The notes beneath the pieces are model-generated. The model was not told the DNA's origin and did not search any database. It saw nothing but the letters and a program-made list of their open reading frames with translations. A DNA stretch of 39,282 bases from a virus, in IMG/VR virus record IMGVR_UViG_3300037068_000051, positions 1-39,282 of that record; one strand, written 5' to 3'. Positions 7,879 through 39,282 of the stretch are shown here, one piece after another. Both the position numbers and the translations under genes were made by a program. Within the stretch, counting starts at the first letter, position 1; each line of letters begins with the position of its first letter.

Positions 7879-8231
7879 GGCCGATACACCATCGATCGCC
7901 ACTGCATCGTCGGCCTGGAGTGAGCGCACTTTTTCGTCGACGGTGCGTAGCCGTCCGCCTTGATGATGCAATCGCGCCGGCACTTGACGGCGACGGAGCC
8001 CCAAGCGCGGGGATCGGGCGGCGGCGGGAGCCCGCGCTTTTCGGCGTAGGCTCGCACCGTCTCCGTCGCGAAGCGCTCGTTGTGGCGGGCGAACACGAGC
8101 AAGTGCGCCCTGGCGAGCAGAATCCAGCCCGCCGGCCCGCGCTCCAGCCGTTCTATAGCCCCGCTGCGCTGCGCTGTCGCCTTGCCGGCCATGATGCCCC
8201 GCTCGACTAGGATAAGGTCGCCAGCGCTCAT
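7875..8231 (-). CDS. Small phage protein, possible winged-helix replication/recombination accessory
   Basis: ATG at 8231 overlaps the recT stop (ATGA). The 118-residue product has a helical N-terminus and a C-terminal module reading RAYAEKRGLPPPPDPRAWGSV, then KADGYAPSTKKCAHSRPTMQWRS. From memory this motif series recurs in small hypothetical proteins near replication or recombination genes of Gram-negative phages, where it looks like a winged-helix domain. No biochemical role is known to me. Coupling to recT suggests a DNA-metabolism job. Confidence 0.6.
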   Translation of the reverse strand: MSAGDLILVERGIMAGKATAQRSGAIERLERGPAGWILLARAHLLVFARHNERFATETVRAYAEKRGLPPPPDPRAWGSVAVKCRRDCIIKADGYAPSTKKCAHSRPTMQWRSMVYRP

Positions 8232-9469
8232 TTTGCGCCTTGCAGCTCGATCTTGCGCAGCCGGGCGGCGTCGCGGAGCTGCGCGAAGTCGGGCGGCCCG
8301 AGCTTGTCGCCGAGCGACAGCGCCAAGTCGACGGCATCATCGTTGATCGACTGTTCTACCATCGTCAACAGCTCGGGCAGCGTCGGGGCCGGCGGCTGCG
8401 GTTGCTGGCTCCCCTTCGCACGTTCCGCCGCGCGCTTTTTGGCAGCGTCGAATGCTTCGTCGAAGCCCGGGCCGCGCTGCGGCTTTGGCTCCGTCCCTTC
8501 GCGCTGCTCCGCCGCCAGCTTTTCCCCCAAAGTGGGAGCCGGCGAAGATCCCGGCTCGAGCTTTTTCGCGTCAAGTGGGGCGTCGGCCGTTTTCATGGGC
8601 TCCGCCTTTTCGGTTTTTTCCGGCCCATTGTGGGAATCGGGAGTTTTTGCGCTCGCCGTGGCGGCCGGCTTTTCGCCTTCGATCGGCTCGCTCGGGCCGC
8701 CGGGCATATACGTTCCTTCAATCGCATCCTTGATGCTCAAATCCTGCTCGCCATTCTCGGCCGCAGCTTCTAACGCCATTGCAGCTTCTAGCTCGGGGCT
8801 TGACGGCATATATTTAAGCACTTGCAGGAGCGGAATTTTGCGCGCGTACATTTCCCAATTGTCGTGTGCGTAGTGCTTGTCGCCGACTTTGTTGTATCGC
8901 TTGAAGTGGCGCTTTACTTTTTCGTTCGTCCAAACTTCGATGACGGGAAAATCGTTCCCCTTGATGCGTCCGACCGCATAGACGAACAGGAGCTTTGCCG
9001 GATCATCTTCGCTGCCGGGCTTGTGTTTGACGAACGGATTGTCGCCTAGCTCATAGTCGAATTGATCGCCCGCGAACACGGCGCCCGTCCACACTGCGCA
9101 GCGGCCCGTGCGATTCGCCAGCTCGACGAGCCCTTTCCAGCCTGGAATAAACTGCGCTTCCATCTTGCGCTTGCTGTTGTTGTAGTACGGGATCATGTAC
9201 GCGCGGCCGTTCAATCCAATTTCCAGCCCGAGCTGCGCCGATTGAATGACGCAAGCGAATACGCTCGCCGGCTCGCACTCGGCGAGTTTCGGATTCATCC
9301 GGTATGCAGTGAGCGCGATGCGCGCCATGCGATCGGCCTTGATATGCTGCGGGAGCGCTGCCGCGATTTGCGATTTGTACATTTGCAACATCGCGGGAAA
9401 GCTCTGCACCGTTCGCGCAACGCTCGTGCCTTCGCTGCCGGCTGCGGCGCGCAAGTCTTGATTGCCCAT
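8228..9469 (-). CDS. recT: RecT-family single-strand annealing protein
   Basis: The 413-residue product carries the RecT hallmarks: a helical N-terminus with YKSQIAAALPQHI, then CVIQSAQLGLEIG, NGRAYMIPYYNN, and FIPGWKGLVELANRTG (about residues 70-125), a later VYAVGRIKGND and WEMYARKIPLLQVLKYMP. It anneals complementary single strands in partnership with the exonuclease encoded immediately upstream (stop/start overlap TAATG). The C-terminal third (about 255-360) is long, Pro/Glu/Lys-rich and probably disordered, longer than in E. coli RecT. The last 50 residues are again helical. Confidence 0.92.
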   Translation of the reverse strand: MGNQDLRAAAGSEGTSVARTVQSFPAMLQMYKSQIAAALPQHIKADRMARIALTAYRMNPKLAECEPASVFACVIQSAQLGLEIGLNGRAYMIPYYNNSKRKMEAQFIPGWKGLVELANRTGRCAVWTGAVFAGDQFDYELGDNPFVKHKPGSEDDPAKLLFVYAVGRIKGNDFPVIEVWTNEKVKRHFKRYNKVGDKHYAHDNWEMYARKIPLLQVLKYMPSSPELEAAMALEAAAENGEQDLSIKDAIEGTYMPGGPSEPIEGEKPAATASAKTPDSHNGPEKTEKAEPMKTADAPLDAKKLEPGSSPAPTLGEKLAAEQREGTEPKPQRGPGFDEAFDAAKKRAAERAKGSQQPQPPAPTLPELLTMVEQSINDDAVDLALSLGDKLGPPDFAQLRDAARLRKIELQGAK

Positions 9470-10383
9470 TATTCCGGTCCCTCCAGTTGTGGCAGCGCAT
9501 CGTCGGCGCCAATGCCGCCGGTCGCTCCCTTTTTGAAACGTCCATCAATGTAGCTCGATGGCTCGACGACGTAGCCGCGCCGCTTTACGGTCTTGCGAAT
9601 GAACAGCTCCCCGTCGTCAAAATCGAGCACGCCGGCATTTTTCATCGAATGCAGCAAATGCGCCTTCGCCACGTCGCGCGCTTCGCTGTAGTGGCCGATC
9701 CACTTCGCGCAATCCTTGTACATGGTGCGCCATGCCCGCAGCGCATCGTCGGCCTTTAGAATCTCCGTTGCATTCGGATTGCTAAACATCAGCTCCGCCG
9801 TTTCGAGCGCACGGGGATGCGCAAAGTCGATTGCCGGCGGCGTTTTGCTCTCGATCAGCTCCCAAAACTTTTGGGCTTCCGACAACAAATACTTGTCGAT
9901 CGCCGCATCGCGCTCCAACGTGTACACGCGCAAGTCATCGCTGCCAAGCAATGCGACGATGCGCCCGAGCGGAGCATCCAACGCGATCATTTGCCAATGC
10001 AATTGCGTGCAGTAGTACGTCGGCGCTTCGTCCGTTCCCGACTTGCCCCATTGCCCGCGCGTGTACTCGCTGGCGCTTTTTATCTCAATGGGGATCATCG
10101 TTTCCGGCCCGATCCGCTCTATCCGGTCGACTTGGGCGCGAAAGTGCTGCGCCTGCGGAAGCGTGCAATCTATTCCAGACTCCAGCGGCGTGCTCGTCTC
10201 CAGCTCGTAGAGCTGCGCGATTGGAGCTTCTAAAATCTTGCCGCGACGCTGCGCCTTGTTTTCCTCGTCGGGCCGTTCCAGCTCGCCGATCTTTTCAAGG
10301 AAAAGGCGAAGCCGGTCTTTCCACGGCGACAGCCCAAGCAACCCGGCGATATCGCTCCCGCCGAGAAAACCTTTACGTTCCAT
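9469..10383 (-). CDS. YqaJ-type viral recombination exonuclease
   Basis: Start ATG 10383 is preceded by GGGAGCG about nine bases away; the frame continues upstream but without supporting signals. The 304-residue product has the lambda-exonuclease/YqaJ motifs: FLGGSDIAGLLGLSPW (6-21), RRGKILEAPI with E52, QVDR with D86, and IEIKSA with E100-x-K102, followed by YYCTQLHWQM. The E...D...E-x-K set forms the PD-(D/E)XK active site. It resects 5' strands from double-strand breaks to load RecT. Complete length for the family. Confidence 0.92.
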   Translation of the reverse strand: MERKGFLGGSDIAGLLGLSPWKDRLRLFLEKIGELERPDEENKAQRRGKILEAPIAQLYELETSTPLESGIDCTLPQAQHFRAQVDRIERIGPETMIPIEIKSASEYTRGQWGKSGTDEAPTYYCTQLHWQMIALDAPLGRIVALLGSDDLRVYTLERDAAIDKYLLSEAQKFWELIESKTPPAIDFAHPRALETAELMFSNPNATEILKADDALRAWRTMYKDCAKWIGHYSEARDVAKAHLLHSMKNAGVLDFDDGELFIRKTVKRRGYVVEPSSYIDGRFKKGATGGIGADDALPQLEGPE

Positions 10384-10486
10384 TTTTATGCGCTCCCGGT
10401 AGACACTCGACGACGCCAAAGCCGTAACACCGCATTCGCGTGCCGGGCCAAATGACACAGCGGCACCGCACGCAAATATGCGGCAT
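10373..10486 (-). CDS. Possible Cys-rich micro-protein (37 aa)
   Basis: In the 120-bp gap upstream of the exonuclease, an ATG at 10486 opens 37 codons overlapping the exonuclease start by 11 bp. The peptide begins MPHICVRCRCVIWPG and has five cysteines (C-x2-C-x-C plus two more), which could bind zinc. No good Shine-Dalgarno sequence is seen. It is listed because this operon leaves few gaps and the composition is not random-looking. Confidence 0.3.
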   Translation of the reverse strand: MPHICVRCRCVIWPGTRMRCYGFGVVECLPGAHKNGT

Positions 10487-14750: not shown

Positions 14751-16346
14751 CTAGGCAAGATCGAGCGCGCGCTTTCCTGGCGCCTTGGCGGCCGTGCTAA
14801 CGGCTTCGGCGCTCGATGCCGGGCGGGCACGTCCTACGCTCCAATCGCGGAGCCGCTTAACCTTTTCGGCTGCGGTCTTAGTAAGCGGCACGACAGTTGA
14901 CGCGGCGGCGATTAAATCCTTTGTGCGAATCTCGCGCGCCTTATCATTGAACGCTGCAAATAGCGCGTCGGGCACAATCGCCGCAATTTCGGAGCCGGTA
15001 AAGCCTTCGCACGCCGCGCTAATCTGTTCGCTATCGATCGGCACTGATCCGCGCCCGTGCGCCTTCATTGCAGCGGCGACGACAGCGGCGCGCTCGTCAG
15101 CGTTCGGCACGTCGACGAAAAACAATTCATCGAATCGCCCCTTGCGCAACAGCTCGGGCGGGAGCCCTTCAACATCGTTCGCTGTCGCGACGACGAACGC
15201 TTCGCCTTGGCGCTCCTGCATCCATGACAGAATCGAGCCGAGCGCGTCAGACGATACGCCACCGTCAGCGCTGCCGCTCGTCGCGCCTTGCAACGCTTTT
15301 TCTATTTCGTCAAACCAGACAACACAGCGGCCGATCGCTTCAATAACTTTGAAAGCCTTGCGAAGATTCGATTCGCTTTCGCCGACGAATTTCGACTTTA
15401 GCGCGCCAAGGTCGACGCGCAACAGCGGCACGCCCCAAGCGGCTGCAACAGCCTTTGCCGTTAGCGACTTTCCGCAGCCGGGCACGCCAACGAGCATGAC
15501 GCCGCGCGGCGCGGGAAGCCCATAATCCCGCGCTTGCTTGCTATACGCAGCCTTGCGCACTGTGAGCCAGCCTTTTAGATTCTCCAGCCCGCCAACGGCA
15601 TCGAGCCCGCCCGGGATCGGGTCGTACCATTCCAAAATCCGCTCGCGCGCAATCACGCGCTTTTTTTCGCCGCTGACGATGGCGGGATCGATGCGGCGCG
15701 ATTGCACGAGCGAGCGCGCGTAACAGCTCGCCGCTTCTTCGCCGCTTAGTCCGATCGCCGCATCGATCGCCGCTTCGCGCGTGCCGTTCGGCGCCGCAGC
15801 CGCTTGCAGCTCGTCGGGCAGCCCTGCAATAGCGCCATCGAGAATCGCCGCGACTTCGGCGCGGTCGGGCATCGGCCATTCGATAACGGTCGTATGCCCC
15901 GCCAGCTCGGGCGGCACGTCGCCGCTAGGCGAAAGCACGATGATTGCTTGCGCGCTCGCCTTGGCGGCCGTTGGCAAGCTCCGCGCTAAGTTGCGGAGCT
16001 GGCGCATTTGCACGGCGCCGCTTTGTCCCTGGAGCCATGCCGGAAGATCGCGCATGATCCACAATCCGCGCTCGTCGCCGCTCGTCGCGCGATTGCCGAT
16101 CAGCGTAAGCATTGCAGCCGGATCGTTCAAGTCGCTGCCGAAGCGGGAGCCGTTAATATCGGCCGCGCCTTGCGCAACGTCCCAAGTGCGCGCGATGTAG
16201 CCGGCATTGGCGCCGGCTTCGAATAGCGAGCGCTCGACGCGCGCTTCTTCGCGCGTCACGATCCACAACAGCGAATTGCGAGCGCGGAGCAGCGCCGAAA
16301 CGTCGGCCGCTGCGCGTATACCATTGTTGCTTGTCGTCGTCGTCAT
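14751..16346 (-). CDS. Ycf46-like AAA+ ATPase
   Basis: Start ATG 16346 is preceded by AGGAGCAATTG. The 531-residue product has a degenerate N-terminal AAA-like half (LLRARNSLLWIVTREEARV ... WIMRDLPAWL ... AIIVLSPSGDVPPEL) and a C-terminal AAA+ domain. The latter has Walker A GVPGCGKS (K293), VGESESNLR, Walker B VVWFDEIEKAL (D346-E347), sensor VATAND and the second-region RKGRFDELFFVD. This two-part layout with 'PPEL...EWPMPDR' matches the Ycf46 family of cyanobacteria and some other bacteria. It would use ATP to remodel a protein partner. No protease domain is fused. Its neighbours upstream may be its partners. Confidence 0.85.
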   Translation of the reverse strand: MTTTTSNNGIRAAADVSALLRARNSLLWIVTREEARVERSLFEAGANAGYIARTWDVAQGAADINGSRFGSDLNDPAAMLTLIGNRATSGDERGLWIMRDLPAWLQGQSGAVQMRQLRNLARSLPTAAKASAQAIIVLSPSGDVPPELAGHTTVIEWPMPDRAEVAAILDGAIAGLPDELQAAAAPNGTREAAIDAAIGLSGEEAASCYARSLVQSRRIDPAIVSGEKKRVIARERILEWYDPIPGGLDAVGGLENLKGWLTVRKAAYSKQARDYGLPAPRGVMLVGVPGCGKSLTAKAVAAAWGVPLLRVDLGALKSKFVGESESNLRKAFKVIEAIGRCVVWFDEIEKALQGATSGSADGGVSSDALGSILSWMQERQGEAFVVATANDVEGLPPELLRKGRFDELFFVDVPNADERAAVVAAAMKAHGRGSVPIDSEQISAACEGFTGSEIAAIVPDALFAAFNDKAREIRTKDLIAAASTVVPLTKTAAEKVKRLRDWSVGRARPASSAEAVSTAAKAPGKRALDLA

Positions 16347-16365
16347 GTTCAATTGCTCCTGTTGT

Positions 16366-21913: not shown

Positions 21914-24337
21914 ATGGGCAACGGTCCACTGTTGAATTTCCCCGCTGTTCCTGGCACGCCGTTGAATGGCGGGGGTAACGGCTCCGTGCGAGGAGACGAC
22001 GCGCCCCTTCCGGCGGACTCGGGCGAGCGCCCGGCGCCGGAAGGGAACGTCTCGACTTCGCTCGATCCCGCTGCCGACAAATTCGATCCGCGCGAGTACG
22101 GCGACGTAGTTGAACGCGCAAAAGAGCGCTTCGATTATGTGTGTGACGTGGACAGCGAGAATCGCAAGAATCAGGCCGACGATATGAAGTTTGCTTGGGA
22201 GCGTGGCGCGCAGTGGCCGGAAGAAAATCGGCGCGCACGCGAGACGGCAAACCCGAAACGGCCCTGGTTGGAATTCAATCAGACCGGCCCTTACATCAAG
22301 CGGATCACAAATGAGCAGCGGCAGAACACGCCGGGGCTTACGGCGCGTCCGGTTGGTAGTGGCGCATCGAAAGCGATCGCTAACATCTATTCAGGGCTTA
22401 TTCGCGATATCGAGTACCGATCGAACGCGGGCTCGGTCTACGACAACGCGCTTGAACAAGCGGCGACGGGCGGCGCGGGATATATGCGAGTCGTGACGGA
22501 GTACGAGCGCGAAGATTCGTTCAATCAGTGCATTCAGCTCCGCTCGATTCCGAACGCGCTGTCGGCGTTCCTTGATCCCGATGCGCAGGCGCCCGACAAG
22601 AGCGACGCAAAGTACGGCTTCGTGTGCGATTGGATCGATCAGGAGACGTACAAAAAGGAATGGCCGGAAGATAAGCGCAACCCGTCATCGTTCGAAGCGC
22701 AGCCGGGCTCGCTTGGCGCTCGATGGTTTAACGGCGACTTGATTTGCGTCGCCGATTACTACGAAATCATCGAGGAAAAGCTAAACCTTGTTCAGCTCTC
22801 GGACGGCCGCACGCTTTGGCGCGATCAGTACGATGCGGAGCTGAAAAAGGCGAACGAAACGGCCGCCGTGCCGACGCCGACGCAGCCGTTCGGCGTTTCC
22901 GCAATGGCGTTGCCGATGCCGCCGCAGATTGTGAAGGAAGCGGAGCGCACGCGTTGCCGCGTGGATTGGTACAAGCTCTCCGCGAACGATTATCCGCTCG
23001 CAAAGTACGAATGGGCCGGCAAGTACATTCCCGTCATCATGGTTCCCGGCGACGAAATCGATATCGACGGGAAAAAGGTACGGCAGGGCGTCATTCGTCG
23101 GCTGCGCGACGCGCAGATGATGTACAACTATTGGTTCACGCTCGCGACGGAGCGGATCGCGCTCGCGCCGAAAGCTCCCTACGTCGCCCTGGCCGGCACG
23201 TTCGAAGGCCATACCGAATGGGACACGCTGAACACTGACAATCATCCGTACCTTGAATACGAGCCCGTCGAGCTGCCCGATGGCACGTTCGTAACGGCGC
23301 CGCCCGCTCGCACCGAGCCGATCCAGCTCGATCAGGGCTTAGTGACGATGTTGCAGCTCTGCTCGCAAAACCTTCGCGATATCACGGGCCAGAAGGATGC
23401 GGCGCAGCCGAATCCGAATGTGCCGTGGCGCGCGATCCTGGCGGAGCAGCGCAAAGGCGACTTGGCGACGTTTCACTACGGCGACAATCTCGCGCGCTCG
23501 ATCACGCTGTTCGGGAAGATTTGCGTCGACTTGATCCCGAAAATCTACGATACGCAGCGCGCGTTGCGCATCATCGATGAAGATGGGACCGACAAGCAAG
23601 TAACGGTCAATCAGGCGATGCCGGCGCCGCCGCCGCAGCCTGGAATGCCGCCGCAGCCGGCGCCGCCGCCGATCAACGATATCACGCAAGGCGAGTACGA
23701 CGTTGTTGTGACGGTCGGCCCCGCGTACGCGACGCGCCGGGTTGAAGCCGCGAACGAAATGCAGCAATTCCTTGAAGCGATGGGGCCGGATAAGGCTTCG
23801 TTGATCGCCGATCTGTTCGCGAAGATGACGGATTGGCCGAACGGCATGGGCGACAAAATCGCCGCGCGCCTGTTCATGATGCTGCCGCCGCAAATTCAGC
23901 AAATGGAGCAGTCGAGCGACGATCCCCAAGTCGCGGCGATCCGTGGCGCGATGCAGACGCAGCAACAACAGTTTCAACAGGCGATGCAGGGTTGGCAGCA
24001 AAAAATCGCGGAAGTCACGCAGGAAAATCAAAAGCTCAAATCGCAGCTCTACGTCGAACAGACCGAAACGGCCGGCGCCAAGCTCAAGGGTGCGCAAGCC
24101 GCCGCTGCGGCCGATCGTTCCGTCGAAATTCAGCGCATGGAGACGCAAGACACGCAAATTCATGCCGCGATGGATGCGAAGGAACTCGCGGCGAAGATCA
24201 CGCAAGACAAGCTCGACGGTTTCATCGATTTTATGTCTAAGGTCGTCGTTCCGCTGCTCGTTGCGCAGCAAAAGCAAACGGCGCCGGTCGGTCCCGAAGC
24301 TGAACAAATTGCGGGCGAGACGAGCCCGGGAGCCTAA
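21914..24337 (+). CDS. Portal protein (P22 gp1-like)
   Basis: The 807-residue product starts with a disordered Gly/Pro/Asp region (about 1-55), then ERFDYVCDVDSENRKNQADD, FAWERGAQW, PWLEFNQTGPYIKRITNEQRQN and GSVYDNALEQAATGGAGYMR, matching P22-type portals. The C-terminus is a long Gln/Ala-rich helix (about 665-800) comparable to the P22 portal barrel. The dodecameric ring is the packaging gate and head-tail connector. Slightly longer than P22 gp1 (725). Confidence 0.9.
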   Translation: MGNGPLLNFPAVPGTPLNGGGNGSVRGDDAPLPADSGERPAPEGNVSTSLDPAADKFDPREYGDVVERAKERFDYVCDVDSENRKNQADDMKFAWERGAQWPEENRRARETANPKRPWLEFNQTGPYIKRITNEQRQNTPGLTARPVGSGASKAIANIYSGLIRDIEYRSNAGSVYDNALEQAATGGAGYMRVVTEYEREDSFNQCIQLRSIPNALSAFLDPDAQAPDKSDAKYGFVCDWIDQETYKKEWPEDKRNPSSFEAQPGSLGARWFNGDLICVADYYEIIEEKLNLVQLSDGRTLWRDQYDAELKKANETAAVPTPTQPFGVSAMALPMPPQIVKEAERTRCRVDWYKLSANDYPLAKYEWAGKYIPVIMVPGDEIDIDGKKVRQGVIRRLRDAQMMYNYWFTLATERIALAPKAPYVALAGTFEGHTEWDTLNTDNHPYLEYEPVELPDGTFVTAPPARTEPIQLDQGLVTMLQLCSQNLRDITGQKDAAQPNPNVPWRAILAEQRKGDLATFHYGDNLARSITLFGKICVDLIPKIYDTQRALRIIDEDGTDKQVTVNQAMPAPPPQPGMPPQPAPPPINDITQGEYDVVVTVGPAYATRRVEAANEMQQFLEAMGPDKASLIADLFAKMTDWPNGMGDKIAARLFMMLPPQIQQMEQSSDDPQVAAIRGAMQTQQQQFQQAMQGWQQKIAEVTQENQKLKSQLYVEQTETAGAKLKGAQAAAAADRSVEIQRMETQDTQIHAAMDAKELAAKITQDKLDGFIDFMSKVVVPLLVAQQKQTAPVGPEAEQIAGETSPGA

Positions 24338-25882: not shown

Positions 25883-26842
25883 GTGCCACCCGATCTAATG
25901 CTGCCGGGAATTACTGACGCCGGCACGGCTGCGCCAGCGCAAGGTGACGGAAGCTCGTCGCCCGCGCCGGATAACACTTCGGGGCAGCCAGCGACCCCCG
26001 ACGCATCTTCGCGCGCAGCGGAGCCTTCGGCCCCTACCGACGCCGCGCCCGACGCGAACGCCGACGATCAAGGCGATCAACGCCCCGATCGCCCGCGCCG
26101 CACTCGGGATAATCGGATAGATCAACTGACGACGGGATTGCGCGAAGCACAGCGCAACGCAGAGCGCGTCCAAGCGCAAAACGATTTGCTGATAAGGGCG
26201 GTGCTTGAAGGTCGCATCGCTCCGCAGCAAGCCGCAGAGCGCGCGGGCGTTACGGGCGACCTTGTAGCTCCTGACGAGTCGAAATACACCGATTGGCGTG
26301 CATACAACCGCGATCTAGCGAAGTATGAAGCTCGCATGGAGGTACGGGAACAGCTCACACGCGCAGCGCAGCAACAGCGCCAGCGATGGGAGCAGGGACA
26401 GACGCAACACGCGGCGACGCAGCGCGCGGCGGCAACCGAGCAATTGCACGGCGTTTTGAGCGTGCAGATGCAGGAAGCCGCAGCGCGATATCCCGATTAT
26501 GTCGACGTTATCAGCGAAGGCGGCGGCGACGAGCTGCCCGTCAACGTCGAAGCGGCGATGGCGGTAACGGGATTCGGCGGCGACATTGCGTACTACCTTT
26601 CGAAACACCCGCAAGTCGTGCGGCAGCTCGCACGATTGCCCGACGTTGCATTAGGCAATCAGATGGCAGTCATTGCCAACTATATGCGCACGAACGCCGT
26701 CGCTATCTCAAACGCGCCGGCACCCGGGCGACCGGGCGGAAGTCGTGGCTCTGCACCCGCAGGATATCCCGAGAATGCAACACCCGAGCAGCATCTTGCT
26801 TGGAAAAAGCGCTCGGAAGCCGCGCAAGGCAAAGGAAGGTAA
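25883..26842 (+). CDS. Scaffolding protein
   Basis: GTG 25883 with GAAAGG upstream. The 319-residue product has a disordered Pro/Ala/Asp N-terminus, then long charged helices rich in Q/R/E (about 78-200: RIDQLTTGLREAQRNAERVQ ... REQLTRAAQQQRQRWEQGQ) and a basic C-terminal end KKRSEAAQGKGR. This is typical of P22-like scaffolds, whose basic helix-loop-helix tail binds coat. It lies just before the coat gene. It directs procapsid assembly and then leaves. Confidence 0.8.
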   Translation: MPPDLMLPGITDAGTAAPAQGDGSSSPAPDNTSGQPATPDASSRAAEPSAPTDAAPDANADDQGDQRPDRPRRTRDNRIDQLTTGLREAQRNAERVQAQNDLLIRAVLEGRIAPQQAAERAGVTGDLVAPDESKYTDWRAYNRDLAKYEARMEVREQLTRAAQQQRQRWEQGQTQHAATQRAAATEQLHGVLSVQMQEAAARYPDYVDVISEGGGDELPVNVEAAMAVTGFGGDIAYYLSKHPQVVRQLARLPDVALGNQMAVIANYMRTNAVAISNAPAPGRPGGSRGSAPAGYPENATPEQHLAWKKRSEAAQGKGR

Positions 26843-26848
26843 AACGCT

Positions 26849-28072
26849 GTGGCTAATCAAATCCTCACGCCGGTAATGATAACGAACGAAGCCGTTATCG
26901 TGCTGGAGAATCAATGCAACGGCGTCCGCTTTTTCGACTCGTCCTACAGCGATGAATTCGCGAAAGACGGCGCGAAAATCGGCGCAGTGCTGAACGTGCG
27001 CAAGCCCGCTCGGTACAAAGGGCGTCAAGGTGCGACGCTCGCTGTCGAAGATCAAACGGAAACGATGGTCCCGCTCGTGCTGACGACGCAATTCGGCGTC
27101 GACGTGCAATTCACGTCGCAGGACTTGACACTTTCGTTGCAGGACTTTTCGAAACGCGTGCTGATGCCGCAAATGGCAGTGATTCGCAATCGTGTCGACT
27201 TCGATTGCTGCCTGCAAGCGCAGAACACGCCGAACGTCGTCGGCATTCCTGGCACGCCGCCAGCGACGTTGAACGCGCTGTTGTCGGTCAAGCAAAAGCT
27301 GTTGGAAATGGGCGCGCCGGATGACGGCCAGCTCTATCAACTGCTCGGGCCGGCTGCAAACACGTCGCTGATCGGCGGGCTGTCGACGCTGTTCAACGCG
27401 CAGACGCGGCTCGCGGAGCAGTACGAAAGCGGCATCATCGCCGATGCGGCGGGGCTGAAAATCGCCCTGGATCAAAACACGATGACGCAAGTTGTCGGCC
27501 CGCTCGGCGGCTCGCCGGTTATCAACGGCGCGGGGCAAGGGCAATCGTCGGGTTGGGCGTACTCGCAAAATCTGCTCGTGAACGGCTGGACGGCGGCAGC
27601 GGCGCCACGGCTGAATGCGGGCGACGTGTTCACGATCGTAGGCGTGTTTGCGGTCAACCCGCAAAACCGTCAGAGCACGGGCGCGTTGCAGCAATTCGTC
27701 GTGCAAGCGAACGTGTCGAGCGATGGTACGGGCGCGTCGGTTATCCCGATCGTTCCCGCGATCATCTTCGGCGGGCAATTCCAGAACGTGACGAACGCGC
27801 CGACTTCGGGGAACGCGATCACGGTATCGGGAGCTGCCAACGCGAATCTGCCGCAAAATCTCGCGTTTCACAAGTCGGCATTCACGATCGCATTCGCTGA
27901 TCTGATTCTGCCGAAGGGCGTCGATATGGCGGAGCGGAAGGTGTACAAGAAAATCAGCCTTCGCGTGATTCGCGCATACGATATCAACAACGACAGATTC
28001 CCGTCGCGGACTGATGTGCTGTACGGCATCAAGGCGGTTTATCCCGAGCTTGGCGTTCGACTCACAAACTGA
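26849..28072 (+). CDS. Major capsid protein (P22 coat type)
   Basis: GTG 26849 with AAGGAAGG upstream. The 407-residue product begins MANQILTPVMITNEAVIVLEN, has FDSSYSDEFAKDGAKIGAVLNVRKPARYKG and VDVQFTSQDLTLSLQDFSKRVL, the N-terminal pattern of the P22 coat family (HK97 fold). Size is close to P22 gp5 (430). It is framed by the scaffold and a strong terminator. Folding of P22-type coats is aided by GroEL/ES, relevant to the co-chaperonin genes immediately downstream. Confidence 0.88.
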   Translation: MANQILTPVMITNEAVIVLENQCNGVRFFDSSYSDEFAKDGAKIGAVLNVRKPARYKGRQGATLAVEDQTETMVPLVLTTQFGVDVQFTSQDLTLSLQDFSKRVLMPQMAVIRNRVDFDCCLQAQNTPNVVGIPGTPPATLNALLSVKQKLLEMGAPDDGQLYQLLGPAANTSLIGGLSTLFNAQTRLAEQYESGIIADAAGLKIALDQNTMTQVVGPLGGSPVINGAGQGQSSGWAYSQNLLVNGWTAAAAPRLNAGDVFTIVGVFAVNPQNRQSTGALQQFVVQANVSSDGTGASVIPIVPAIIFGGQFQNVTNAPTSGNAITVSGAANANLPQNLAFHKSAFTIAFADLILPKGVDMAERKVYKKISLRVIRAYDINNDRFPSRTDVLYGIKAVYPELGVRLTN

Positions 28073-28097
28073 TCGGGGCGCGTGTTTCATGGTCTTG

Positions 28098-28123
28098 CCC
28101 GGGGAGCGATCCCCGGGATTTTT
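28098..28123 (+). terminator. Strong rho-independent terminator after the coat gene
   Basis: CCCGGGGA (28098-28105), loop GCGA, TCCCCGGG (28110-28117), then ATTTTT (28118-28123). A GC-rich 8-bp stem with a GNRA-type tetraloop and T-run. It would end most coat transcripts and lower expression of the co-chaperonin and tail genes relative to coat. Confidence 0.85.
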
Positions 28124-28135
28124 CGGAGAAAAATC

Positions 28136-28621
28136 GTGGGCCTGGAAAGTTTGTCGAAAATGTCGGACGAGGAATACAAGCGGCTGTCGCCGCAAGACCT
28201 GATGGCGTACAACCGTCAGATGCCCGAAACGGATTACAGCAAACCCTACCTTCACAAAGCGTATCCGAAGGCAAAGTATCAGCTCCGCGAGCTGCCCGGC
28301 GGCGTGCGCCGTCTCGTCTCCGTCGAAGTGGCGAGCGCCGAAGCCGAAGCGAAGCTCGTCGGCGATTGGCGCGACAATCCTACGGCGTGGGGAATTGTCA
28401 CGCATCCCGAATCCGATCCGGTTGCGCGCGAGACGGGCTATTCGTTCGACGTGAACGATCCGATCGCGCCGCAAGTCGCGCACACGCCGCAGCCTGACGG
28501 CGTTCCGCCGGGCACGGGCGAGCCCGCGCCGAACGATGATCCCGACAACGCGCCAGTGCGCGAGCCGGGCGACGATGACGAGGGCAGCGGTGCTACCGCT
28601 CGGCCCGCGCGTCGCCGTTAA
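28136..28621 (+). CDS. Hypothetical head-region protein (161 aa)
   Basis: GTG 28136 is preceded by CGGAGAAAAATC, better than the upstream in-frame ATG at 28082 that spans the terminator. The 161-residue product starts MGLESLSKMSDEEYKRLSPQD, has YQLRELPGGVRRLVSVEV and ends in a disordered Pro/Asp/Gly tail and ARPARRR. No family recognised; probably a virion or assembly protein. It overlaps the GroES-like gene by 32 bp. Confidence 0.65.
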   Translation: MGLESLSKMSDEEYKRLSPQDLMAYNRQMPETDYSKPYLHKAYPKAKYQLRELPGGVRRLVSVEVASAEAEAKLVGDWRDNPTAWGIVTHPESDPVARETGYSFDVNDPIAPQVAHTPQPDGVPPGTGEPAPNDDPDNAPVREPGDDDEGSGATARPARRR

Positions 28622-28865
28622 GCGTGGCATTGGCGAACGTGTACGTCCGTCCGGTATTGTCATTCCGGCGCCCGATACGCGCGACTCGTTTTGCGGGGAA
28701 ATTCTCTCCGTAGGCAGTGCGCATCGCGTTCGCAACAAGCGCTTGCCGCTTGAAGTCAAGGCGGGGCAGCGCATCGTCTATTCGTCGCGCGTCGACTCGT
28801 TTCAAGTGGGCGACGATGATGTAGATATCGTCGACGAAAATTCCATCATCGGAGTTATCGAATGA
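28590..28865 (+). CDS. GroES-like co-chaperonin, single domain
   Basis: I chose GTG 28590 (GAGGG at 28580-28584) because the GroES fold begins there. The 91-residue product MLPLGPRVAVKRG matches the 'RPLxDRVxVKR' start of GroES. A mobile-loop segment (about 13-30) carries the hydrophobic tripeptide I23-V24-I25 between Gly and Pro. CGEILSVG, PLEVKAGQRIVYSS and VDIVDENSIIGVIE correspond to the core and end of GroES. Length is close to E. coli GroES (97). It would cap GroEL during folding of a phage protein, most likely the coat. It overlaps both neighbours. Confidence 0.82.
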   Translation: MLPLGPRVAVKRGIGERVRPSGIVIPAPDTRDSFCGEILSVGSAHRVRNKRLPLEVKAGQRIVYSSRVDSFQVGDDDVDIVDENSIIGVIE

Positions 28866-29575
28866 CGACAGCGACGACAACTGCCGGCGAAATTATCACT
28901 GACGCATTCCTGTTCGCTGGCATCGGCGATCAGTACAACCCGCTCGACGGCACGACGGCCGCCGCAGCGCTGCGCAATTTGAACGATCTGATCGACAGCG
29001 TAAGTACCGAGGAAATGACAATCTTCGGCTACACCGAAGGCACGATCGCGCTCGCTGTCGGCGTCTCCCCGATTCTCGTCGGCCCGGCGCAAGGGCTCGG
29101 CGTTCGCCCCGCCAGCGTCGCGGCCGTCTCCATCGTCGACTCGGGCAGCGTCACGCATCCGGTCGCAATCATCGGCCCGCAACAGTACGCCGATATTGTG
29201 TATCTGCCGGCGCCTGGACGGCCCGAATCGCTGTACAACGACGGCGGCGCGCCCGTGTCGAATTGGTATCTGTGGCCGAAGCCGGCCTTTGTCGGAGACG
29301 TGCTGCACGTTTGGTACTGGTCGCAGATTCCGCAGTTTTCGGCGCCGACGAATTTGCTCGTCTCGCCGCCCGGGTATTCGCTGTTCCTGAAAACGTCACT
29401 CGGCGCGCTCGTCGCGGCGATGAACGGCCGCACGCTCACGCCCGACAATCAGAAGATCATGCGCACGGCGCGCAACAATGCGCGTCGCCTATCGAATCAG
29501 CCCAAAGTGTTGCACCTTGACGTGCCGATGCCGAGCGCGCCCTGGTTCAACATTTACACCGGAGGTCCGCTGTAA
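28862..29575 (+). CDS. Head-tail adaptor / tail accessory protein (P22 gp4-like)
   Basis: ATG 28862 overlaps the GroES-like stop (ATGA). The 237-residue product starts TTAGEIITDAFLFAGIGDQYNPLDG, then AALRNLNDLIDSVSTEEM, and has YLPAPGRPESLYNDGGAPVSNWYLWPKP and KTSLGALVAAMNGR, the pattern of gp4-type adaptors that bind the portal after packaging. It lies between the two GroES-like genes. It then passes the packaged head on to gp10. Confidence 0.75.
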   Translation: MTTATTTAGEIITDAFLFAGIGDQYNPLDGTTAAAALRNLNDLIDSVSTEEMTIFGYTEGTIALAVGVSPILVGPAQGLGVRPASVAAVSIVDSGSVTHPVAIIGPQQYADIVYLPAPGRPESLYNDGGAPVSNWYLWPKPAFVGDVLHVWYWSQIPQFSAPTNLLVSPPGYSLFLKTSLGALVAAMNGRTLTPDNQKIMRTARNNARRLSNQPKVLHLDVPMPSAPWFNIYTGGPL

Positions 29576-30195
29576 TGCTGTCGAGCAATCTACCGTTTCG
29601 CCCGATTCAGGATATCGTCGTCTGTCGCAAGGATCACACCGAGCGATTGACGGCGGCCGGCTTGCTGATCCCGCACGTCAACGATCCAGACCGGCAGGAA
29701 AGCGACGAGCGCGACGTAGCCGAAGTGCTCGGCGCGGGCGAAGGCAAGCTCCTGGCCGATGGAAAGCGCCGGCCTATGAGCGTACACGTCGGCGATCGCA
29801 TCATCTTCGGCCGCAACAAGGGCCAATCGATCCGGCTGAACGAGCTGGACTATTGCGTGTTGCGCGAGGAACACATTATCGGGCGCCTTACCGACGACGG
29901 CTTCGAACCGTTGAACGGCGTTATCGCCGCGCAGCCGATCCACGAGGAAAGGGAGCTTGATTCCGGCGTGATTCTCCCGCAGTCGGTCGACGATCGCGAC
30001 GAAGCAATCGTCGTCGCGGTCGGCCCCGGCGATATCGGCGACGACGGCGAGCTGGAGCCGACGACGGTGCGCGTCGGCGATCGCATCCTGTACAACGTTC
30101 GCATGGGCGAGCCGTTCCGCCACGGCGAGCGCGAGCTTGTCGCGATGCGCGAAAAGCATATCGTGTGTGTCGTGGAGCGTGCCGACGATGCCTGA
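29575..30195 (+). CDS. Tandem two-domain GroES-like co-chaperonin
   Basis: ATG 29575 overlaps the previous stop (TAATG). The 206-residue product contains two GroES-like domains. Domain 1 (about 8-105): RPIQDIVVCRKD, GLLIP (L30-L31-I32), VAEVLGAG, VHVGDRIIFGR, YCVLREEHIIG. Domain 2 (about 114-202): PIHEERELDSGVILP (V132-I133-L134), IVVAVGPG, VRVGDRILYN, LVAMREKHIVCVVE. Both keep the Gly-hydrophobic triplet-Pro of the GroEL-binding loop. The architecture is that of chloroplast Cpn20. It may assemble with the single-domain protein encoded at 28590-28865. Confidence 0.82.
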   Translation: MLSSNLPFRPIQDIVVCRKDHTERLTAAGLLIPHVNDPDRQESDERDVAEVLGAGEGKLLADGKRRPMSVHVGDRIIFGRNKGQSIRLNELDYCVLREEHIIGRLTDDGFEPLNGVIAAQPIHEERELDSGVILPQSVDDRDEAIVVAVGPGDIGDDGELEPTTVRVGDRILYNVRMGEPFRHGERELVAMREKHIVCVVERADDA

Positions 30196-31627
30196 CGGCG
30201 CACAAATCGTCCCGCTGTTCGGCACCGGCTTTTTCCGCAAGTCGGCGAACGTCGTCGCGCAAACGCTCGTCAATATGTACCGGGAGCCGCAACAGCCGAC
30301 GCCTGACGGCACGCCGATGGCGTTCTATGGCACCGTTGGCAAGACGCTGTTCGCCGCGATCGGCGCGCTGCCGTCGCGCGGCGCGCGGCAAGTCGGCCCG
30401 TTCTTTTTCTTTTCGGTGCACGGTAACACGCTCTACTCGATCAATTCGGTCGGCATCTATACGCCGATATTCCCGACGCTGCTATCGTCGAACGGCCGCG
30501 TCGATATGACGGATAACGGCTCGCAGCTCCTAATCGTCGACGGGCTCGCCGGCTACGTGCTCACGCTGGCAACTATGGCGCTCGTGCGCATAGCCGATCC
30601 CGACTTTCCGATTCATCCAACAACGTGCACGACGCTAGGCGGCTACGGCATCGTCGACAACAACGATGCGCGCGTCGGTCAATTCAATTGGTCGTCGCAG
30701 TACGATTATTCGACGTGGGACGGGCTGGACTTCGCCAACGCCGAAGGCAATCCCGATCCGCTCGTGCGCGTATTCGCCAATGCCGGCGACTTGTATCTGT
30801 TCGGCACCGTCTCGACGGAAGTATGGTCGCTGTCGGGCGATGCCGCGATTTTCCGGCGCGTTGGCGGCGCCGCGATGGAATGGGGGCTCGCCGCCGTTTG
30901 GTCGCTCGACAAATTCTCCGATACGGCGCTCGTGTTCCTTGGCAAAAACAAGCTCGGACAAGTGCAGCCGATTCAAGTCGTCGGATATAACACGAAGATT
31001 CTCGTCGACTTGTCCGTACCGAGCGGCCCTGATGTTGCCAACGATATCAATTCGCGCGTGCCGGCGAGCGCGACAGGCTACGCGTACGTGCGCGACGCGC
31101 ACACGTTCTATCAGCTCAATTATCCCGATCGCTCGTATCTGTACGACGCGCTTTCGAATTCCTGGCAGCTATCGCAAAGCGGACTGACGCCAGCTCGCGA
31201 CAACGGCGAAGTGCGCGTCGAAATGTTCGGCGTTCCCTACGTCTCCGACTTCGCGAATGGCAATTGGTACGCGCAATCCGATTCGGTCTATACCGACAAC
31301 GGCAACCCGATCCTTCGCGAAATCACGACGCGGCATTCGATCGCGAATCTCGCGCGCTTCGCGGTCAACGAACTGTTTATCGAATTCGAACCGGGCGTCG
31401 GGATCGCTGTCGGGCAGGGCTCCGATCCGCAAGCAATGTTGCAATGGTCGAAAGATGGCGGGCAAACCTTCGGCGTCGAAGTGTGGCAGCCGATCGGACA
31501 GATGGGGCAATATCTCAATCGCTGCGTGTGGCGCAATCTCGGCATCGCGCGCGATTGGGTTTTCCGCTTGCGCATTACTGATCCGGTCAACGTCGTCATT
31601 ATCAACGCCGGGATGATCGTATCGTGA
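30188..31627 (+). CDS. Packaged-DNA stabilisation / tail protein (P22 gp10-like)
   Basis: ATG 30188 lies within the end of the tandem GroES gene (8-bp overlap). The 479-residue product begins VPLFGTGFFRKSANVVAQTLVNMYREPQ, and has GGYGIVDNNDARVGQFNWSSQYDYSTWDGLDFANAEG and VYLFGTVSTEVWSLSGDAAIFRRV-like blocks, the Phage_stabilise signature. It should close the head-tail channel after gp4. Confidence 0.85.
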   Translation: MPDGAQIVPLFGTGFFRKSANVVAQTLVNMYREPQQPTPDGTPMAFYGTVGKTLFAAIGALPSRGARQVGPFFFFSVHGNTLYSINSVGIYTPIFPTLLSSNGRVDMTDNGSQLLIVDGLAGYVLTLATMALVRIADPDFPIHPTTCTTLGGYGIVDNNDARVGQFNWSSQYDYSTWDGLDFANAEGNPDPLVRVFANAGDLYLFGTVSTEVWSLSGDAAIFRRVGGAAMEWGLAAVWSLDKFSDTALVFLGKNKLGQVQPIQVVGYNTKILVDLSVPSGPDVANDINSRVPASATGYAYVRDAHTFYQLNYPDRSYLYDALSNSWQLSQSGLTPARDNGEVRVEMFGVPYVSDFANGNWYAQSDSVYTDNGNPILREITTRHSIANLARFAVNELFIEFEPGVGIAVGQGSDPQAMLQWSKDGGQTFGVEVWQPIGQMGQYLNRCVWRNLGIARDWVFRLRITDPVNVVIINAGMIVS

Positions 31628-38170: not shown

Positions 38171-39282
38171 CGTACACCGTCGTAACTCCAGACGTCGCCC
38201 CGGCTGCCGGCGGCACCTTCACGATCGCGCCGCCCGACGCTTCGGCGCCGGCCGCGCCGTCGCCCGGCGATCGCCCGCCAGCTTGGGCGATGGGGCTCGC
38301 CAGCCTGACGGGGATCGACCCGAGCTTTTTCAGCGTCGACACGCTGAAAGCGCTTGCCCGGCAGGGCGGTTTAACGGGCCGTATAGCCCTTGAAGGGCTC
38401 GCCAGTATCACGGACCCGATCAACGCCGCTGTAGGGCTGCCACGGGCCGCAGACGTGACGGGCAAGGCATTGACGAAGGCGGGCGTACCGGAGCCCGAGA
38501 CGGACGCCGAAAAATTCGTCCACGACACGGGGCGGGCGATCGTGCCCGTCCTAGCGACGGCTGGCACGGGCGGCGTCATGCAGGCGGCGGCGAGCCCCGT
38601 CGTTCGCGGCGTAGGCTCCGCGCTCGCCGCCAACCCTGGTACGCAGCTCGCGGCGTCGACGGCGGCCGGCGCCGCCGGCAGCGTCGGCGAGCGGCAGCTT
38701 GAATTGAGCCCCGCGCAAAATCTGTTCTTTTCCCTGCTCATGGGTACGGCTGTTCCGCTCGGCGGCACGGCCGCATCCGAAATCACAAAGGGCGGCGCTC
38801 GCGCGTTGCAGGCTGCGGTGCGGCCGTTCACCGAAGGCGGCCAGAAAACCGCGATCGGCCAACTGCTCAATCGCTTTGCGACGGATAAGCCGACAGCGCT
38901 CGCCGGGATCGAAGGCGCCCGCGAATTCGTGCCTGGATCGATCCCGACGACGGCCGAAGCTGCCGGCGATATCGGGCTCGCCGGATTGCAGCGTGGATTG
39001 CAGAACACGCCCGAAGGCTCGGCAGCATTCACGGCGAAGGCGAACGCGCAGAACAAGGCGCGACTCGACTATCTGACGCGCACGGCGAAAACGCCGGAAG
39101 ATTTGGCGGCGGCGATCGCGGATCGGCAGGCGCAATCCGATGCCGACTATGGCGCCGCGTTCGGAGCTGGCGGGGAGATTGGACCGAAGGCGAATCGGAT
39201 GCTGAATGCGGTACTCGATCGCCCCGCTGTCATGCAGGCATGGAAAGAAGCGGAGACGATGGCCGCCAACGCCGGCATGAAG
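38167..39282 (+). CDS. N-terminal part of the large virion/ejection protein crossing the circle junction
   Basis: ATG 38167 overlaps the previous stop (ATGA). The 372 codons present end exactly at the window edge and continue in frame at base 128 of the window, giving 632 residues. The N-terminus is Pro/Ala-rich (MTYTVVTPDVAPAAGGTFTI), followed by helical and Gly/Ala-rich hydrophobic parts (VPVLATAGTGGVMQAA, SPAQNLFFSLLMGTAVPLGG) that could interact with membranes. It may be the third member of the P22-style ejection set (gp7, gp20, gp16). Which one it matches is uncertain. Confidence 0.72.
   Translation, partial: MTYTVVTPDVAPAAGGTFTIAPPDASAPAAPSPGDRPPAWAMGLASLTGIDPSFFSVDTLKALARQGGLTGRIALEGLASITDPINAAVGLPRAADVTGKALTKAGVPEPETDAEKFVHDTGRAIVPVLATAGTGGVMQAAASPVVRGVGSALAANPGTQLAASTAAGAAGSVGERQLELSPAQNLFFSLLMGTAVPLGGTAASEITKGGARALQAAVRPFTEGGQKTAIGQLLNRFATDKPTALAGIEGAREFVPGSIPTTAEAAGDIGLAGLQRGLQNTPEGSAAFTAKANAQNKARLDYLTRTAKTPEDLAAAIADRQAQSDADYGAAFGAGGEIGPKANRMLNAVLDRPAVMQAWKEAETMAANAGMK
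39156..39282. repeat. Terminal direct repeat, right copy (circle overlap)
   Basis: Identical to bases 1-127. It lies within the gene that starts at 38167, which stays open to the last base and continues after position 127. When counting genome length or features, one copy should be removed. Confidence 0.9.

Follow-up and report, generated by a model that had tools for sequence, protein, structure and literature searches.

Single-domain and tandem GroES-like proteins encoded in the head operon of a soil phage: candidate co-chaperonin lids for host GroEL

CocO of phage RB49 is a phage co-chaperonin that serves in coat protein folding. Among phage lids for coat proteins, gp31 of T4 is the precedent (PMC6318259), and the action of GroEL/GroES in the folding of the P22 coat protein was shown with temperature-sensitive mutants (PMC2267774). 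A different arrangement is found in chloroplasts, where Cpn10 and the tandem Cpn20 form functional seven-domain hetero-oligomers (PMC5780408) and where the Cpn10(1) of Arabidopsis shows no activity unless Cpn20 is present (PMC4242682). A homo-tetramer of chloroplast Cpn20 is functional too, and so are concatemers of six or eight domains in combination with GroEL (PMC5780408, PMC4242682). The use of a tandem Cpn20 with Cpn10 on a seven-fold machine raises a symmetry question that is still being discussed (PMC5780408). In algae, a CPN11/CPN20/CPN23 heterotetramer has been described on the Clp core (PMC8889267). Here, we describe a single-domain Cpn10 gene (S) and a tandem one (T) that are found together inside the head-building operon of a soil phage.

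The window is the whole stretch of DNA analyzed, the 39,282 nucleotides of IMG/VR record IMGVR_UViG_3300037068_000051. Positions 1-127 are identical to 39156-39282, and this 127-bp terminal repeat suggests a closed phage genome, although the record carries no completeness value. Both open reading frames, S and T, are located where the initial annotation had placed them, and the head genes follow the order portal, scaffold, P22-type coat, unknown gene, S, adaptor, T and Hc3 (Table 1). The gene between the coat and S gave no match in Pfam or PHROG; most relatives carry a homologue in this position, also when they lack S. The gene flanked by S and T had been called an adaptor, and this assignment is supported by its PHROG match, by an SU10_adaptor score just under the cut-off and by a distant homologue in Phage DSL-LC05 that is annotated as "tail adaptor." The overlap is ATGA for S and the adaptor, 1 base (TAATG) for the adaptor and T, and 8 bases for T and Hc3. 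Because of these overlapping gene ends, S, adaptor, T and Hc3 are probably translated together. We also considered whether the strength of the start signals, a strong GGAGGT for T of the window and a GTG start for S, could hint at a 3:1 ratio, but this was not upheld in the relatives and was discarded.

Table 1. Coordinates of the head genes and Cpn10 features in the window
Feature	Position	Strand	Evidence
P22-type portal protein	21914..24337	+	PF16510 511.7 bits
Scaffolding protein	25883..26842	+	phrog_8865 head scaffolding 56 bits
Major coat protein, P22 gp5 type	26849..28072	+	PF11651 106 bits; phrog_283 major head protein
Gene between coat and S, overlaps S start by 32 bases	28082..28621	+	
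Gene S, single-domain Cpn10/GroES-like co-chaperonin, 91 aa, GTG start	28590..28865	+	PF00166, AF2, Foldseek, start conservation
S mobile-loop contact motif GIVIP	28653..28667	+	Sequence; G-hydrophobic3-P in 8/8 S genes accompanying tandem T
Head-tail adaptor gene between S and T	28862..29575	+	phrog_12985 57 bits; SU10_adaptor 25.7 bits (cut-off 27)
Gene T, tandem two-domain Cpn10 co-chaperonin (Cpn20-like), 206 aa	29575..30195	+	PF00166 two stretches; AF2; 7ekq_Q/R match
T-N, first Cpn10 domain	29596..29883	+	PF00166 56.2 bits; GLLIP at 29659-29673
T-C, second Cpn10 domain	29905..30174	+	PF00166 54.9 bits; GVILP at 29965-29979
Head-closure protein, P22 gp10-like, Hc3	30188..31627	+	phrog_578 head closure Hc3 249.7 bits

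The initial annotation had recognized one Cpn10 domain in S and two in T, and all three are above the Pfam cut-off. Against PF00166 (Pfam Cpn10, cut-off 21.1 bits), S scores 42.3 bits (41.7 when its domain, 28593-28859, is scored singly) and T 108.1 bits in two stretches, and both have phrog_3188 "co-chaperonin GroES" as their PHROGs match. The G-hydrophobic triplet-P motif of the mobile loop, noticed before in the three domains, is indeed present in S (GIVIP), T-N (GLLIP) and T-C (GVILP) and has been kept in 24/24 domains of the eight distinct lineages with S and a tandem T. The VxxGxRIxY core, also claimed for all of them, holds for S (VKAGQRIVY) and T-C (VRVGDRILY), but in T-N it ends in F (VHVGDRIIF). 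The roof-hairpin sequence, aligned to E. coli GroES, is retained in S and in both domains of T, and the start of S is kept across relatives as M/V-[LVI]-PLGPR. Both genes are under purifying selection (dN/dS of 0.15-0.21 for S and 0.14-0.17 for T; each T domain and S fall within 0.11-0.21). A chance resemblance to Cpn10 was ruled out by the three scores above the Pfam cut-off together with the conservation and the purifying selection. At the level of sequence, the three domains are shown to be separate, conserved paralogues, with YS[SA]RxD in 12/12 S genes and, at the same position, GRNKGQ in T-N and N.RM.EPF in T-C (with one exception among the T genes, that of L073).

The Cpn10 fold was borne out by AF2 models built from alignments of 7-10 sequences (window and relatives). 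The S and T models (pLDDT 78 in both cases; pTM 0.70 and 0.74, respectively) match GroES/Cpn10 structures, which are the top PDB matches of S by Foldseek, and confidence is lowest over the mobile loops in both of them. The best PDB match over both domains of T was 7ekq_Q/R (Foldseek TM 0.66-0.69, about 200 columns), that is, chloroplast Cpn23/Cpn20, in support of the comparison with chloroplasts that had been drawn from the sequence. T compared with 7ekq_Q gave a VIA Z of 14.1 over 176 residues (rmsd 3.4, identity about 22%), versus a Z of 10-12 with single Cpn10 structures. T is therefore predicted by the model to be two Cpn10 domains placed head to tail and arranged as in the solved Cpn20/23. 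A sequence search identified the chains of 7EKQ as one Cpn11 (P), one Chaperonin 23 (Q) and two Cpn20 (R), i.e., one single and three tandem chains and thus seven domains, a solved algal precedent for the sum of three T and one S put forward in the initial annotation. The composition has this precedent, but the 3:1 stoichiometry is not forced, since the Cpn20 homo-tetramer and the six- and eight-domain concatemers work, and four relatives (L038 and L075-L077) carry the pair without a tandem. Other combinations, two T with three S or one T with five S, also add up to seven domains.

In the algal structure, the Cpn11/20/23 cap sits on ClpP, and the title of a work cited in PMC8889267 refers to an interaction inhibiting ClpP proteolysis. 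A phage pair that caps a target other than GroEL, such as host ClpP, and so blocks the degradation of phage proteins could be imagined from this match. We consider such a role highly improbable, given that 7EKQ was the only tandem Cpn10 entry returned and so would rank first for any target, that the same protein type serves the chloroplast GroEL homologues and that the loop motifs are conserved throughout the lineages, as needed for GroEL binding.

Relatives were recovered by scanning IMG/VR with S, T, the adaptor and the coat, followed by Cpn10 scans of the records. The gene pair, which the initial annotation had proposed to look for in related phages, was found. The order S-adaptor-T is kept in the eight S+tandem lineages, with adaptor identity down to 33%, and the block is located between the genes for the P22-type coat and for head closure. 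The relatives form three classes: (i) one Cpn10 gene, at the T position (L040, L041 and L042); (ii) S and a single-domain T (L038, L075, L076 and L077); and (iii) S and a tandem T (the window, L005, L022, L026, L028, L035, L037 and L073). This series suggests that the tandem T derived from a single gene. In a domain tree that left out plastid sequences, the twelve S genes formed one group (support 99/97), the eight T-C domains another (94/91) and all but one of the eight T-N domains a third (99/98). One internal duplication as the source of both T-N and T-C is at most tentative, as T-N lies closer to the single T genes in this tree and the labels that assume one origin were only partly supported.

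We also examined 48 coat loci spanning the coat to Hc3. Twenty-four had no detectable Cpn10 in the available stretch, ten had one upstream of the coat only and the remainder had it between the coat and Hc3; these Cpn10 counts are lower bounds, many of the loci being fragments, and by the position rule L073 was counted without its S gene, although it really belongs to class (iii). It follows from the 24 loci without Cpn10 that a lid of its own is not required in every case by this coat type. Four loci (L102, L108, L109 and L132) code for a divergent Cpn10-like protein between the coat and Hc3, with a shared "TPxQLSRWxNG"-like stretch near the loop position, and L132 has, in addition, a normal Cpn10 gene upstream of the terminase.

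The distribution of S and T bears on whether they work together. One alternative is that they act as two independent lids on host GroEL, S as a homo-heptamer and T as a homo-trimer or -tetramer, serving separate substrates or acting at separate times. The mobile-loop motifs are intact in the three domains, which, judged from the motif, also fits separate homo-rings; the chloroplast Cpn20 tetramer is functional, and in E. coli apicoplast Cpn20 can stand in for GroES by itself (PMC3542282). Besides, L040-L042 have a lone single Cpn10 at the T position. The same phages can be read the other way: T-position genes exist at times without S, and every S of the YS[SA]RxD type that was seen had a T next to it, which fits S needing T and argues against independent lids, as does the fact that both flank the same adaptor. 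Arabidopsis Cpn10(1) may be a fair model for such an S. The loop glycine of S, furthermore, has been lost only in the class (ii) phages (n = 4), whose T retains it, a situation that suits a helper subunit better. Independent lids thus appear unlikely to us.

Loss of the glycine in these four relatives could also indicate that one of the pair, most likely S, has lost the chaperone work and, with its Cpn10 fold put to a new use, serves in the structure or assembly of the head-neck region. The position of S next to the adaptor, its own motif in 12/12 genes and the divergent Cpn10-like proteins encoded between the coat and Hc3 in the four loci above point in the same direction. This seems improbable, as S retains G-hydrophobic3-P in the window and in the seven other S+tandem lineages.

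The reading that we prefer, with a probability of roughly 0.6, is that S and T are phage co-chaperonin lids that act on host GroEL as a mixed seven-domain ring during head making. No GroEL gene was found in the genome of the window or in the records of six relatives, so that host GroEL is implied as the barrel if the pair is a lid. S and T would co-assemble into one seven-domain ring, most simply of three T and one S, and the mixed ring would displace host GroES from host GroEL. The resulting chamber would favor the P22-type coat protein as its main substrate and perhaps other head parts; the coat is proposed because of the position of the pair in the operon and the literature on the P22 coat. 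By analogy with the chloroplast Cpn10/Cpn20 lids, fixed paralogues would provide a lid with a defined asymmetric interior. A more ambitious version, which we hold tentatively and with clearly less confidence than even odds, is that of an obligate hetero-heptameric lid (three T and one S) that arose in P22-coat phages by stepwise duplication, from one domain to S with a single T and then to S with a tandem T, possibly independently of the chloroplast lid, as a fixed asymmetric GroEL roof tuned to the coat.

The host was sought through prophages, and the tandem profile gave no match in genome contigs; the coat profile found only distant relatives there (Candidatus Sulfopaludibacter, Methylobacter, Paraburkholderia, Burkholderia and Pandoraea). 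Away from the head genes, the minus strand of the window codes for an AAA+ ATPase (14751-16352; PF00004, 101 bits; phrog_8638, 586 bits, function unknown) and for a RecE/YqaJ-like exonuclease and a RecT-like annealing protein whose genes adjoin (8228-10458).

A phage family with one, two or three lid domains is a compact system for testing the order of events, the composition of the ring and the consequences for a single abundant substrate. P22-coat phages also seem to have more elaborate lids than their single annotated GroES genes imply. We found no discussion of a phage tandem GroES in the literature searched, which was mostly without subscription papers.

The combination of a single and a tandem GroES is otherwise known from plant and algal chloroplasts (Cpn10/Cpn11 with Cpn20/Cpn23 in Arabidopsis and Chlamydomonas; 7EKQ). 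The phage pair resembles that system in having single and tandem proteins, in the predicted two-domain arrangement, which is that of 7ekq Q/R, and in that seven domains are possible as three tandem chains and one single. In contrast, the phage genes belong to a head operon, identity between T and 7ekq_Q is low (about 22%) and the phage pair is known from genes and models. T4 gp31 is likewise a phage-encoded lid, and S and T are also proposed to work with host GroEL in coat folding. However, gp31 is one single-domain homo-heptamer without roof loops and serves a different coat protein (PMC6318259), whereas the window has two genes that code for three domains of canonical Cpn10 sequence with the roof region kept. 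Xanthomonas phage PBR31, Phage DSL-LC05 and MW202674 are similar in that they combine a phage Cpn10 with a P22-type coat 37-44% identical to that of the window, but they have one single-domain GroES near the terminase or portal and no S-adaptor-T block. Neither the linked block nor a tandem with two clear Cpn10 domains was found by sequence in named phages; tblastn matches that seemed to cover at least 80% of T were one single domain matched twice and were discarded.

The initial annotation knew of no phage system with such a pair, a statement that requires correction. The Cellulophaga phages phi18:3, phi13:2, phi19:3 and phi46:3 have a single 84-aa protein (gp080-type, in phi18:3 numbering) and a 200-aa one (gp096-type), both annotated as "co-chaperonin GroES." In phi18:3 (L149), Pfam Cpn10 is detected in the 84-aa protein and in the C-terminal half of the 200-aa one, the N-terminal half having no match, and a fold search of viral proteins matched the long protein to T over its whole length. 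The viral entries A0A516LTQ1, A0A516L046 and A0A516LJK4 also aligned with T over most of the length in the fold search. The three relatives of phi18:3 carry both Cpn10 proteins. Unlike S and T, the Cpn10 genes of these phages are unlinked (31108-31362 and 41458-42060 in phi18:3, about 10 kb apart), there is no useful sequence-profile match to T and phi18:3 is filed in a different family, Pachyviridae. As far as we have seen in the literature searched, the Cellulophaga pair has been annotated yet apparently not discussed. These phages are cultured and provide a ready laboratory comparison for a single and 200-aa Cpn10 pair, and, given that they exist, a pair like S and T is not unique to the window.
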